Source: Haloglomus litoreum
GTDB lineage: Archaea > Halobacteriota > Halobacteria > Halobacteriales > Haloarculaceae
NCBI RefSeq assembly: GCF_029338515.1
Contig: NZ_CP119988.1
Location: forward strand, 3,472,001 to 3,536,000
DNA: 64,000 nucleotides
Reading direction: 5' to 3'
Of this stretch, positions 7,528 to 13,473 are shown piece by piece; the stretch's first letter is position 1, and each line of letters begins with the position of its first letter. The translations under genes and the position numbers were made by a program. The notes beneath the pieces were generated by a model. It ran no database searches. It was not told where the DNA came from and was given only the letters and a program-made list of their open reading frames with translations.

Positions 7528-7701
7528 ATGGAAGTACCGAAGGAACTCGGCGCGTATACCCGGGTGCTCAAGCTCGCGAGCACCCCCTCCTGGCAGGAGT
7601 TCTCCAGGGTCGCCCTCATCGCGGGCGTGGGGGTCATCCTCGTCGGCATCCTGGGGTTCCTGATCTTCGTCATGATGAGCTTCGTCCCCGGAGGTGTCTG
7701 A
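7528..7701 (+). CDS. secE: protein translocase subunit SecE (Sec61 gamma)
   Basis: This 57-residue single-pass membrane protein clamps the SecY channel. The sequence has the family layout: an amphipathic N-terminal helix ([16 protein letters not shown]), then one transmembrane helix ([20 protein letters not shown]) ending in FVPGGV. ATG 7528 gives the standard archaeal length; an upstream ATG at 7519 would add only three residues and sits too close to the TATA box. The 3' end overlaps spt5 by 8 nt, the conserved archaeal secE-spt5 arrangement that couples export and transcription genes in one operon. Confidence 0.95.
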
Positions 7702-8143
7702 GGCCGTGCCCATCTTCGCCGTCAAGACCACTGCGAGCCAGGAACGCACCGTCGCGGACATGATCATGAACCGGGAGGAGGAGAGCGTCCACGCCGCGCT
7801 GGCGCCCGACTCGCTCACCTCCTACGTGATGGTCGAGGCCGACGACATCTCGGTGTTCGACCGCATCCTCGACGAGATCCCCCACTCCCGGGGCGTCGTC
7901 CAGGGCGAGTCCTCCATCGCAGAGGTGGAGCACTTCCTCTCGCCGAAACCGGACGTCGAGGGCATCGCCGAGGGCGACATCGTCGAGCTCATCGCCGGCC
8001 CGTTCAAGGGCGAGAAGGCGAAGGTCCAGCGCATCGACGAGGGCAAGGACCAGGTCACCGTCGAGCTGTACGAGGCGACGGTCCCGATCCCCGTGACCGT
8101 GCGCGGGGACCAGATCCGCGTACTGGACTCCGAAGAGCGATAA
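7694..8143 (+). CDS. spt5: transcription elongation factor Spt5 (NusG family)
   Basis: This protein binds the RNA polymerase clamp as a processivity factor, normally with Spt4. The 149-residue product has an N-terminal NGN domain ([18 protein letters not shown] to about residue 90) and a C-terminal KOW domain with the family motif [19 protein letters not shown] (about 95-115). The GTG at 7694 overlaps the end of secE by 8 nt, indicating translational coupling. Length and domain order match archaeal Spt5. Confidence 0.95.
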
Positions 8144-8285: not shown

Positions 8286-8291
8286 TATAAA
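8286..8291 (+). promoter_or_regulatory. candidate TATA box at the head of the tandem array
   Basis: TATAAA sits inside GGGTATAAACCG, immediately before the 22-bp array. Initiation about 25 bp downstream would fall inside the first repeat unit, so the array may be transcribed towards the Lrp-type regulator gene. The element also reads as TTTATA on the other strand, so its direction is not certain. Confidence 0.35.
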
Positions 8292-8302
8292 CCGAACTGG
8301 GC

Positions 8303-8720
8303 GATATCGAATACGGGTCCGGGCGATATCGAATACGGGTCCGGGCGATATCGAATACGGGTCCGGGCGATATCGAATACGGGTCCGGGCGATATCGAAT
8401 ACGGGTCCGGGCGATATCGAATACGGGTCCGGGCGATATCGAATACGGGTCCGGGCGATATCGAATACGGGTCCGGGCGATATCGAATACGGGTCCGGGC
8501 GATATCGAATACGGGTCCGGGCGATATCGAATACGGGTCCGGGCGATATCGAATACGGGTCCGGGCGATATCGAATACGGGTCCGGGCGATATCGAATAC
8601 GGGTCCGGGCGATATCGAATACGGGTCCGGGCGATATCGAATACGGGTCCGGGCGATATCGAATACGGGTCCGGGCGATATCGAATACGGGTCCGGGCGA
8701 TATCGAATACGGGTCCGGGC
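8303..8720. repeat. tandem array: 19 identical copies of a 22-bp unit
   Basis: Each unit begins with the palindrome GATATC and carries GGGTCCGGGC at its end. GATATC recurs every 22 bp from 8303 to 8699 without a single mismatch. Two degenerate copies (GATATCACGCGGGTCC) follow at 8721 and 8742. There are no spacers, so it is not CRISPR. The 22-bp period is close to two helical turns, which would place all sites on one face of DNA. Perfect identity implies recent expansion or gene-conversion-like homogenisation. Confidence 0.97.
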
Positions 8721-8820
8721 GATATCACGCGGGTCCAGAACGATATCACGCGGGTCCCCGCGGGGGACCGGGGGCGTGCGTGGGTCCAAAGTAAAGTGGC
8801 TCTGCCGCGGAGTCCCTCGT

Positions 8821-9294
8821 ATGGCCGACGACGACCTCGACGACGTCGACAGGGCGATCCTGTACGCACTGCAGGAGGACGCCCGGAACATGTCGTCCGG
8901 CGACATCGCGGAGCGAACCGGGACCTCGGACAGCACGGTCCGCAAGCGCATCCAGCGCCTCGAATCCGACGGGATCATCAAGGGGTACAGCGCCAGCGTC
9001 GACTACCAGAGATCCGGCTACCCGCTCCGGATGCTGCTCTACTGCACTGCCTCGATCCCGGAGCGTGGCGGGATGATCGCCGATATCCTGGAGATCGACG
9101 GCGTCATCTCGGTCCAGGAGCTGGTCACCGGCGAGCAGAACCTCCTCGTGACGGCCGTCGGCGAGTCCGACAGCGACATCACGCCCGTCGCGCAGGAACT
9201 CCTCGACATGGGACTGACGGTCGCCGACGAGGTACTCGTCCGGAGCCACGAGTCGACACCCTTCGGCAGGTTCGATCCCAGGGGGGATAGCTGA
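8821..9294 (+). CDS. Lrp/AsnC family transcriptional regulator next to the dabBA locus
   Basis: This 157-residue regulator has an N-terminal AsnC-type helix-turn-helix (DDVDRAILYALQEDARNMSS to DSTVRKRIQRLESDGIIKGY, residues 5-58). A C-terminal alpha/beta effector/oligomerisation domain follows, with VQELVTGEQNLLVTAVG in the place of the usual V-x-G-x-x-D core. ATG 8821 gives the family length; an upstream in-frame start at 8776 would run into the leader. It is 275 bp upstream of dabB on the same strand, so it is a natural candidate to control the DAB pump in response to a carbon signal. That role is inferred from position only. Confidence 0.85.
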   Translation: MADDDLDDVDRAILYALQEDARNMSSGDIAERTGTSDSTVRKRIQRLESDGIIKGYSASVDYQRSGYPLRMLLYCTASIPERGGMIADILEIDGVISVQELVTGEQNLLVTAVGESDSDITPVAQELLDMGLTVADEVLVRSHESTPFGRFDPRGDS

Positions 9295-9466: not shown

Positions 9467-9496
9467 GAACAGATAGATTTAATAACCAATCTGTTC
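9467..9496 (+). promoter_or_regulatory. inverted repeat straddling the dabBA TATA box (putative operator)
   Basis: GAACAGAT (9467-9474) and ATCTGTTC (9489-9496) form perfect 8-bp arms around TTTAATAA (9478-9485), the most AT-rich element before dabB. A factor bound to this palindrome would block TBP access. The start codon of dabB lies 73 bp downstream of the right arm, leaving a leader of about 60 nt. The neighbouring Lrp-type protein is the obvious candidate ligand, by inference. Confidence 0.6.
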
Positions 9497-9569: not shown

Positions 9570-11066
9570 ATGTCAGGACACAGCCAATCGAAGACGGTCG
9601 GACCACTTCCGGACACGACGGCCGAGTCGCCGTTCGTGCCCGTCGCACTCACCTGGCTCGTCTGGTCGCTGCTGGCCGCGAGTCTCGGCGCCCTGGTCCT
9701 CCGAGTCCGGGGCGGGGCCGCGTGGGAGGTTCCGGGGCTCGTGGCCGTCGACGGGCTGACCGTCCTGATGTGGGTGGTCGTCACGTTCTTCAGCGGCATC
9801 GTCCACAGCTACTCGCGCCGCTACATGGCCGGGAGCGCCCGGAAGACGGCCTTCTTCGCCACCACGTCCGGCTTCACGGTGGTCGTGATGGCCCTGGTCG
9901 CGGCCGACCACGTCGCCCTGTTCGGCCTGCTGTGGCTCGTGATGGGCCTGCTGATGGCGAAGCTCGTCGGCATCGCCGAGGGCTGGGAGCAGGCGCAGGC
10001 GGCCGCGACGGTGGCCCGCCGGTACTTCCTCGCCAGCAGCGCGCTGCTCGGCGTCGCGCTGACGGCGCTGTGGTGGACGACCGGCGCGACGACCGTCTCG
10101 GGGATCGCCGCGGCCGCCGGCACGCTCGGCGGCCCGGTGTGGCTGGTCGCCGCCGCCGCGCTCGTGCTCGCGGCGATGATCCAGTCCGCCCTGGTGCCGT
10201 TCCACACCTGGCTGCTCTCCTCGATGACCGCGCCGACGCCGGCGTCGGCGCTGATGCACGCCGGGTTCGTCAACGCGGGCGGCATCCTGCTGACCCGCTT
10301 CGCCCCGGTCGTCACCGTCGACCCCGGGCTCATGCTCGCGGTGGTCGCCGTCGGCGGCGCCAGCGCCATCGGCGGCAAGCTCCTGAAATCGGTCCAGACG
10401 GACATCAAGGGCAAGCTCGGCTGCTCGACGGTCGGCCAGATGGGGTTCATGATCATGCAGGCCGGCCTCGGCTTCTTCGGGGCCGCCATCACCCACCTCA
10501 TCCTGCACGGGTTCTACAAGGCCTACCAGTTCCTGAGCTCGGGCGAACAGGTCGCCCACACCAGCCCGAGCGAGGGGACCCCGCACACGACGGAGCGACT
10601 GACGAGCGTCGTCGGTGTCGTCGTGATGCTGCTGACCGGCCTGGCCGGCGGCGCGCTGTTCGCGGTCCTGACCGGGAAGGGGACCACCATCGACAGTGGC
10701 CTCCTGCTGACCTTCTTCGTGACGTTCACCACGCTCCACGCCGCTCGAAGCGCGGTCCAGCGCACGTCGTTCTCGCCGGTGGCTCGCTACGGCGCCGTCC
10801 CGCTGGTCTTCCTCCCGGCCATCGTCATCTACGCCGTGGTCTACGGGGCGGTCTCCGGGCTCCTGTCCGGCGTCCCGATGGTCACGGCGCCGACCGAACT
10901 GACCCTGCTCCACGGCGCCCTGGCCGTCGTCTTCACCGCCATCTACGTCGGCATCGAGACCGGCGTCCACGAGAGGAGCCAGCGCCTCTACGTGGCGCTG
11001 CTGAACGCCGGCCAGCCGTCCGCGGACACCGTGCTGACTGCCTCGGAGGACTACAATGAGTACTGA
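9570..11066 (+). CDS. dabB: DAB inorganic carbon transporter, membrane subunit DabB
   Basis: This 498-residue polytopic membrane protein belongs to the NuoL/MrpA proton-conducting family. With DabA it forms an energy-coupled pump that accumulates bicarbonate by vectorial CO2 hydration. About 14 hydrophobic segments are visible. The antiporter core includes the Lys-containing helix region around HTWLLSSMTAPTPASALMH (residues 212-230) and an ITHLILHGFYKAYQFL helix (about 308-325). A highly charged loop follows near residue 330. Its 3' end overlaps dabA by 11 nt, so the two are translationally coupled. Adjacency to a DUF2309-type DabA separates it from respiratory NuoL. Confidence 0.92.
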   Translation: MSGHSQSKTVGPLPDTTAESPFVPVALTWLVWSLLAASLGALVLRVRGGAAWEVPGLVAVDGLTVLMWVVVTFFSGIVHSYSRRYMAGSARKTAFFATTSGFTVVVMALVAADHVALFGLLWLVMGLLMAKLVGIAEGWEQAQAAATVARRYFLASSALLGVALTALWWTTGATTVSGIAAAAGTLGGPVWLVAAAALVLAAMIQSALVPFHTWLLSSMTAPTPASALMHAGFVNAGGILLTRFAPVVTVDPGLMLAVVAVGGASAIGGKLLKSVQTDIKGKLGCSTVGQMGFMIMQAGLGFFGAAITHLILHGFYKAYQFLSSGEQVAHTSPSEGTPHTTERLTSVVGVVVMLLTGLAGGALFAVLTGKGTTIDSGLLLTFFVTFTTLHAARSAVQRTSFSPVARYGAVPLVFLPAIVIYAVVYGAVSGLLSGVPMVTAPTELTLLHGALAVVFTAIYVGIETGVHERSQRLYVALLNAGQPSADTVLTASEDYNEY

Positions 11067-13473
11067 CGCACCCATCGACGACAGCATCGACAGGGCCGCG
11101 ACCATCGTCGGCTCGCTCTGGCCCATCCACTCGTTCGTGACCGCGAACCCCCTCTCGGGGTTCGAGGACCAGCCGTTCGACGAGGCCGTCGCGCAGGCGG
11201 CCGGGCTGCTGGGTGGCCGTGGCTACCCCAGCCCGGAGACGTTCCGTGCGGCGCTGGATCACGGCCAGATCGACCCGGAGCACCTCGGGACGGAACTCGC
11301 CGCTGCCGGCTACGACGACGACCCCGAGGCGCTGCTCGACCGGATGGACGACAAAGTCGACGCCGAGGGCGGCGACGTCGAGGCCGACGCCGATACCGCC
11401 ACGGACCACGTCGACCGGGTGCTGTCGAAGTGGCTGTCGGCCTTCCTCGACGAGGGGAGCGCCTACTGGTCGATGCCGAACCGCGAGGCGGGGTTCTACA
11501 CCGCCTTCCGCGGAGTGGCCGAGCACGACGGCGACATCCCCGACGCGGGGATCGTCGCCGACCTGCCCGAGGAGCCGGCCGCGGCCATCGAGCGGGTGCT
11601 GGAGCCGTTCCCGGAGCACCAGTGGGTACCCATCTTCGAGGAGCAGCTGACCGCCCTCCCCGGCTGGACGGGGTTCATCAAGCAGCGGGTCGCCGACGGG
11701 GGCGAGTGGCAGTCGACGTACCCCATCTCGCTGAAGGAGTACCTCGCGGTGCGTCTGGCGCTGCTGGACGCCGTCGACGCCGACATCGAGCCCTCGAACG
11801 ACGGCGTCGACGCCCACCCCGCGGACGAACTCGCCGGGGCCTTCCTGCGCGCCTGGGAGGCGACCTACCGCGAGGACCTCGTCGAGGCCGTCGCGACGGA
11901 CGGCCGGTCGCTGGCCGACGACGAGCCGTCGGGCCGCCCGGACGCCCAGCTGGTCTTCTGCATCGACACCCGCTCGGAGGTCATCCGTCGCCACATCGAG
12001 GCGACGGGCGACTACGAGACCCACGGCTACGCCGGCTTCTTCGGCATCCCGATGGAGTACCAGGGGTACGAGGCCGACGTGGCGGTCGACGCCTGCCCGC
12101 CGATCCTCGACCCCCAGCACCGCATCACCGACCTCCCGACCGACGACACGACACAGGAACGCCACGACCGCTGGACGGGCATCCGCGAGGCCGCCGACGA
12201 GGTCATCGAGACGCTGGAGGCCAACGCCGCCACGGCCTACGGGTTCGTCGAGACCGCCGGGAGCGGCTACGGGTTCGCGCTCGCGGCCCGCACGCTCGTC
12301 CCCGAGCGCGTCCGCGACCTGTTCACGGCTGCCGACGACGCGGTGCCCGACGACCACGAGTTCTGCGAGCCGCTGGTCCACCACCAGCACCAGTACGCCG
12401 GCGACCTCCCGGTGGGGATGACGACCGAGGAGCGGGTCGAGTACGCCGCGACCGCCTTCGACCTGATGGGCTGGGAGGAGTTCGGCCGCCTGGTCGTCTT
12501 CGCCGGCCACGCCGGCGAGACGGCCAACAACCCGTACGATTCGAGCCTGGACTGTGGCGCCTGTGCCGGCAACCCCGGTGGCCCGAGCGCTCGCGTCCTC
12601 GCGACCATCTGCAACGACGAGGAGGTGCAGGCGGGCCTCCGCGAGCGTGGCCACGACATCCCCGAGGACACCGTCTTCCTCGCCGGCCAGCACAACACGA
12701 CGACCGACGAGGTCGACCTGTACGACGGCCACGTGCCCGAGAGCCACGCCGAGGACCTCGCGCAGTTGCGCGCGGACCTCGAGACCGCTCGCGAGCACGC
12801 GACCGCCGAGCGCGCCGCCGAGATGGGTGCCGACGGCTCGGCGAGCGTCCGCGAGACCGAGCGCCGCGCCGCCGACTGGGCCGAGACCCGCCCCGAGTGG
12901 GGGCTGGCCGGCAACGCCGGCTTCGTCATCGGGCCCCGCGGCCTGACGAGCGACCTCGACCTCGACGGCCGCGCGTTCCTCCACTCCTACGACTGGTCGA
13001 CCGACCCCGACGGGGACGCGCTGGAGGCCATCCTGACGGGCCCGATGGTCGTCACCCAGTGGATCAACACGCAGTACTACTTCTCGACGGTCGACAACGC
13101 CGTCTACGGCAGCGGGTCGAAGGTGACCCACAACCCCGTCGGGAACGTCGGCGTCTACCAGGGCAACGGCGGGGACCTGATGACCGGCCTCCCGCTCCAG
13201 TCGCTCATGGCGGCCGACGACGAGCCCCACCACCAGCCGCTCCGCCTCTCGACGGTGGTCCACGCCCCGGTCGAGCGCGTCACCGAGGTCCTGGCCGAGC
13301 ACGGGGACGTGGCGGGACTGCTCGACAACGACTGGCTCTCGCTGACGGTCGTCGACCCGACGCAGGACCACCGCGCGTTCCACTACGAGTCGGACCTGGA
13401 ATGGTCGGCGGCGTCGGAGGCGGTCGAGGCGCGCCCGGAGCCGCCGGAGGCCCGCGCGGTCGCGGACGACTGA
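11056..13473 (+). CDS. dabA: DAB inorganic carbon transporter, zinc subunit DabA (DUF2309)
   Basis: This 805-residue soluble subunit has a beta-carbonic-anhydrase-like zinc site. The ligand pattern of the family is present: C302 and D304 in VFCIDTRSE, H485 in GHAGETANNPY and C500 in SLDCGACAG. The 15-residue H-to-C spacing equals that of characterised bacterial DabA. HHQHQY and ITHNPVGNVGV-like C-terminal motifs (here THNPVGNVGVYQGNGGDL) are also visible. An Asp/Glu-rich surface marks haloadaptation. It overlaps dabB by 11 nt; the 260 bp after it lead to a PHP-domain gene. The family function is known from bacterial work; activity in this archaeon is inferred. Confidence 0.93.
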   Translation: MSTDAPIDDSIDRAATIVGSLWPIHSFVTANPLSGFEDQPFDEAVAQAAGLLGGRGYPSPETFRAALDHGQIDPEHLGTELAAAGYDDDPEALLDRMDDKVDAEGGDVEADADTATDHVDRVLSKWLSAFLDEGSAYWSMPNREAGFYTAFRGVAEHDGDIPDAGIVADLPEEPAAAIERVLEPFPEHQWVPIFEEQLTALPGWTGFIKQRVADGGEWQSTYPISLKEYLAVRLALLDAVDADIEPSNDGVDAHPADELAGAFLRAWEATYREDLVEAVATDGRSLADDEPSGRPDAQLVFCIDTRSEVIRRHIEATGDYETHGYAGFFGIPMEYQGYEADVAVDACPPILDPQHRITDLPTDDTTQERHDRWTGIREAADEVIETLEANAATAYGFVETAGSGYGFALAARTLVPERVRDLFTAADDAVPDDHEFCEPLVHHQHQYAGDLPVGMTTEERVEYAATAFDLMGWEEFGRLVVFAGHAGETANNPYDSSLDCGACAGNPGGPSARVLATICNDEEVQAGLRERGHDIPEDTVFLAGQHNTTTDEVDLYDGHVPESHAEDLAQLRADLETAREHATAERAAEMGADGSASVRETERRAADWAETRPEWGLAGNAGFVIGPRGLTSDLDLDGRAFLHSYDWSTDPDGDALEAILTGPMVVTQWINTQYYFSTVDNAVYGSGSKVTHNPVGNVGVYQGNGGDLMTGLPLQSLMAADDEPHHQPLRLSTVVHAPVERVTEVLAEHGDVAGLLDNDWLSLTVVDPTQDHRAFHYESDLEWSAASEAVEARPEPPEARAVADD

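Follow-up and report, generated by a model that had tools for sequence, protein, structure and literature searches.

The window (the whole 64,000-nucleotide stretch of Haloglomus litoreum DNA that was analysed) contains a tandem array of a 22-bp unit in the spacer between nusG/Spt5 and an Lrp/AsnC-type regulator gene (lrp), which is followed by two DAB genes. The features of the locus, in window coordinates, are:

7694..8143, plus strand: nusG/Spt5 (Pfam Spt5-NGN and KOW; TIGR00405 KOW_elon_Spt5), in the same place in the genomes G001 and G002
8286..8291, plus strand: TATAAA directly 5' of the array (sequence and alignment), absent in both sister species
8299-8716, strand not applicable: 19 exact 22-bp copies of GGGCGATATCGAATACGGGTCC (sequence reading)
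8717-8736: degenerate copy B, GGGCGATATCACGCGGGTCC, 20 bp (sequence reading)
8737-8757: degenerate copy C, AGAACGATATCACGCGGGTCC, 21 bp (sequence reading)
8787..8797, plus strand: putative TATA-like core promoter of lrp, from column conservation in 97 distinct orthologous upstream regions
8821..9294, plus strand: lrp, Lrp/AsnC-type regulator of 157 aa (Pfam HTH_24 and HTH_AsnC-type)
9467..9496, plus strand: inverted repeat GAACAG..CTGTTC before dabB (sequence comparison)
9570..11066, plus strand: dabB, NuoL/Mrp-like subunit (Pfam Proton_antipo_M)
11056..13473, plus strand: dabA, inorganic carbon transporter subunit (Pfam DabA, E 1e-267)

The original prediction placed the array beside the regulator of a DAB locus, and this was correct. 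A dabB match was present within the fetched flank at all 82 loci searched around lrp orthologues and a dabA match at 66 of the 82, so the regulator is a conserved neighbor of DAB genes. Its score lies below the NCBIfam cut-offs for named Lrp equivalogs. Among the lrp-orthologue loci, adjacency of nusG and lrp was seen in the genus only.

The presence of nineteen identical copies at a 22-bp period was confirmed both by sequence reading and by TRF, which delimited the array at 8299-8726 (period 22, 19.5 copies, 100% identity), with a perfect partial copy extending it from 8716 to 8726. The interval 8303-8720, given in the original prediction, is the identical 418 bp with the register shifted by four bases. 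The two degenerate copies at the right edge, predicted to end about 60 bp before the ATG, are also there, with 63 bp separating the end of copy C from the regulator ATG at 8821; the only exact genome matches of the degenerate type, GATATCACGCGGGTCC, are copies B and C. The array is non-coding, since it begins after the nusG stop, ends before the lrp start, and has a period that is not a multiple of 3. Of the 22 rows that TRF gave for the window, this array stands out as the most extreme. In the 1.6 Mb of the organism's own 4,695,480-bp genome that served as the sample for tandem-repeat comparison, it is the longest perfect array and the sole array of such size and identity. This is far beyond chance, as a 22-mer would not be expected to recur exactly even once. 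No match to the unit with up to 3 mismatches was found elsewhere in the 4.70-Mb genome, which excludes identical units scattered genome-wide, and the matches of an 18-bp core of the unit with 2 mismatches were single, scattered sites. A dispersed genomic repeat was therefore ruled out.

The order nusG-lrp-dab is common to two genomes of the same genus, Haloglomus halophilum ZY41 (G002) and G001, whose flanking genes share 89-94% DNA identity with the window. The nusG-lrp spacer measures 244 and 262 bp in these sister species, compared with 680 bp in the H. litoreum window, and at the place of the array each contains a single copy of the element (GGGCGATATCGGATACCGGGCCC and GAGCGATACCGAACGCCGGGTCC in G002 and G001). 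In the alignment of the window with G002 this segment matches at 15 of 16 positions, better than its surroundings, and in the alignment with G001 at 12 of 16. The better-than-surroundings alignment with G002 means that the ancestral segment may hold a functional site, perhaps a single weak regulatory one. With the array and the last 50 bp left out, the spacers of the window and G002 agree at 121 of 192 aligned positions (∼63%). As there are 0 mismatches in 418 bp of the array, its expansion or last homogenization appears to be much younger than the split of the species. The claim that the identity of the copies implies recent expansion is thus supported by the sister genomes.

Outside the genus, the array was not found in 145 further genomes from the family searched with a 28-mer probe at up to 3 mismatches, and no exact match of the unit was found in GTDB r220 contigs or in IMG/VR. 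A plasmid collection contained no unit match, and a mobile or viral origin was ruled out by the lack of matches in this collection and in IMG/VR. Nor was the element seen outside the genus in the upstream regions of lrp orthologues. Since the element is present once in each sister species, about 21 times in the window, and was not found elsewhere, a local expansion on the H. litoreum lineage is the simplest explanation, and the comparison indicates that a segment present once in the ancestor has recently expanded in this species alone.

Across the 97 distinct lrp-orthologue upstream regions, a ACAAAGGTAAAGTG-like box located 24-34 bp before the ATG is conserved, as is a TGYCGCGGA-like element between this box and the ATG. 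The position of the box would fit the TATA box of a leaderless haloarchaeal transcript. The array is located upstream of this core promoter box, with ∼60 bp between the box and the end of the array and ∼30 bp between the box and the end of the degenerate copies, which probably leaves the array outside the lrp mRNA. The core promoter region (8787-8812), also in orthologous upstream regions, comprises the conserved box, often in a CAAAGG-TAAAGTG-CCTTTG-like form, followed by TGYCGCGGA, and this combination is possibly an autoregulatory site. Further downstream, the GAACAG..CTGTTC inverted repeat surrounds a TTTAATA-like box before dabB, and a related form of 43-44 bp is found at 12 related lrp-dab loci (among L059-L138) from several haloarchaeal genera, which makes it a candidate operator of the DAB genes.

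The array is probably a non-coding minisatellite that is specific to the species, lies upstream of the lrp promoter, and is close to neutral. Its effect on lrp expression would most likely be slight, and a promoter-tuning role is possible. The array would have arisen from the ancestral single-copy segment of ∼22 bp (GGGCGATATCGRATAC-CGGGYCC) in the nusG-lrp spacer. Duplication of this segment would have come first, with degenerate copies B and C as the probable remains of this older event, and one version would then have been amplified to 19 identical copies, presumably through slippage during replication or through unequal recombination among the copies.

In the definition of prokaryotic satellites by Subirana and Messeguer (2019, PMC6749651), the units are 10-200 nt long and repeated head-to-tail in tandem at least four times, with internal regularity and a short total length. 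The array resembles these satellites in its head-to-tail arrangement, unit length (22 bp), copy number (19.5, at 100% identity), and short total length, and, in keeping with the requirement that we added to the definition for the term non-coding, it is not part of a coding gene. That it expanded locally from a sequence present once is indicated by the one copy at the same place in G001 and G002. Satellites occur sporadically in archaea, including the haloarchaea Halorubrum lacusprofundi and Natrialba magadii (PMC6749651). The H. litoreum array differs from the satellites of that study in that it is non-coding and unusually perfect, in that its period is not a multiple of 3, and in that its single-copy state can be traced in sister species.

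Besides the known haloarchaeal satellites, tandem arrays at other lrp genes and in the organism's own genome argue for a minisatellite. Unrelated intergenic arrays are located after lrp in Halorubrum saccharovorum (17-bp unit) and Halorubrum sp. SD626R (19-bp unit), and an unrelated array with a 26-bp unit is located just upstream of the lrp promoter in Halorubrum trapanicum (L115), so tandem expansion near lrp is not peculiar to H. litoreum. The coordinates of the Halorubrum arrays are L115:2838-2945, L066:3528-3624, and L082:3487-3554. In the 1.6 Mb of the H. litoreum genome, the perfect array that ranks next among those whose period is not a multiple of 3 has a 56-bp unit in 4.4 copies; it is apparently intergenic (G000:C1:3624625-3624871). 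A further array, of a relatively AT-rich 48-bp unit in 5.4 copies with 95% identity, is found in a sister species (G001:C1:571041-571297).

It speaks against a neutral reading that nineteen perfect copies are extreme for this genome, that the array adjoins a conserved promoter on its upstream side, which suggests regulation, and that the ancestral segment aligns so well with G002. The array could be a cis-regulatory cluster in which each unit is the site of a protein, the Lrp regulator or another, and the number of copies tunes lrp and dab or soaks up the protein. Such a role would agree with the location of the array close to the conserved core promoter of lrp, on the upstream side, with the retention of a single copy by both sister species, and with the unrelated array that another genus has at the equivalent place. 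However, the properties of the unit do not point to a protein site. The original prediction emphasized that each unit carries a palindrome and that the period would align bound proteins on one face of the DNA. An 8-bp palindrome is indeed present, but it is unremarkable, as ∼10% of shuffled units also contain one (32% contain a 6-bp palindrome), and in G001 the sequence is CGATACCG instead of CGATATCG, so this sister species lacks an intact GATATC palindrome. The period is near two helical turns (2.10 at 10.5 bp per turn), but this leaves a rotation of ∼34° per unit, which over 19 units adds up to nearly two full turns, so that every face of the helix is covered nearly twice. The phasing is thus only approximate, and the helical-phase argument is weakened. 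The unit is also unlike the conserved inverted repeat at the dabB promoters, so it does not match an operator-like sequence (the GAACAG..CTGTTC repeat being itself a putative operator). The genome has no second site for a protein that would recognize the unit with up to 3 mismatches, and upstream of lrp the element was seen only within the genus. The suggested functions as a protein sink, a switch, or a means of tuning expression therefore received no positive support from the palindrome, the phasing, or the comparison with dabB, and we regard a cis-regulatory cluster as unlikely. That tandem expansion represents a recurrent, selected tuning of the DAB regulator, with the 22-bp array of Haloglomus and the 26-bp array of H. 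trapanicum acting as a copy-number rheostat, is in our view distinctly improbable.

An assembly artefact, affecting either the copy number or the whole array, is very improbable. The copy number of a perfect array is easily miscounted, and the same assembly contains a perfect 99.7-kb tandem duplication that is either real or an assembly effect. Against this, two degenerate copies mark the edge of the array and its flanks are unique, the genome consists of a single contig with 0 N bases in the 1.6 Mb sampled, and one long read easily covers 428 bp. Transcription of the array, as a structured RNA or as a protein with a 22-residue repeat, would agree with the stop-free passage of both strands through the array, with the long minus-strand open reading frames (ORFs) that cross it, and with the TATAAA directly before it, which on sequence grounds is a possible promoter reading into the array. 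However, freedom from stop codons is a consequence of the unit, and the ORFs extend over nusG and lrp in antisense orientation, so a repeat protein was rejected, the ORFs being by-products. Single strands of tandem units fold no more strongly than shuffled ones (z 0.26 to 0.79, DNA parameters), which also led us to reject hairpin-forming DNA. The Rfam matches (MIR2933, 28.7-31 bits) are far below the gathering threshold of 70 and are attributed to chance on repetitive sequence, and the sister species do not have the array. A transcribed array is thus exceedingly improbable. A length of 22 bp is typical of iterons, and those of plasmid R6K are 22-bp direct repeats. The array shares with R6K iterons this repeat length and direct orientation and a position beside the gene of a DNA-binding protein, as would be expected of an iteron or partition-type array at a plasmid or replication origin. 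Unlike R6K iterons, it is found at a chromosomal housekeeping locus that is syntenic in sister species without the array, it is absent from relatives, and no Rep gene or origin is nearby: the nearest Cdc6 match is ∼345 kb away, and the neighbors are nusG and a gene of Lrp rather than Rep or Par type. Together with the lack of a match in the plasmid collection, this leaves an iteron array practically without credibility, and a replication origin was rejected.

If the minisatellite is neutral, the locus would clearly exemplify the birth of an archaeal minisatellite whose single-copy state is kept in sister species, and the array would be a ready marker for strain typing. VNTR loci in bacterial promoter regions are short tandem repeats upstream of a promoter for which variable copy number is expected. 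The H. litoreum array is similar in being a short tandem repeat upstream of a promoter, and its unit is longer than the repeats typical of phase variation; the comparison of copy number covered one H. litoreum genome and the two sister species with their single copies. A functional array would act as a promoter element dependent on copy number and would control the regulator of a bicarbonate-uptake system; to our knowledge no such element is known in archaea, and none was found in a literature search.

The large duplication in the same genome (G000:C1:1185736-1285488 and 1285475-1385227; L188-L198) is a tandem duplication of 99,753 bp with 100.000% identity. It begins at the 3' end of tRNA-Thr(CGT), a 14-bp core, CCCCCTACCGGCTT, is common to its three junctions, and a tyrosine integrase (Pfam PF00589) is located at the right end. 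It is apparently an integrative element present in two head-to-tail copies, or an integrated copy and a circular form that were merged by the assembler.
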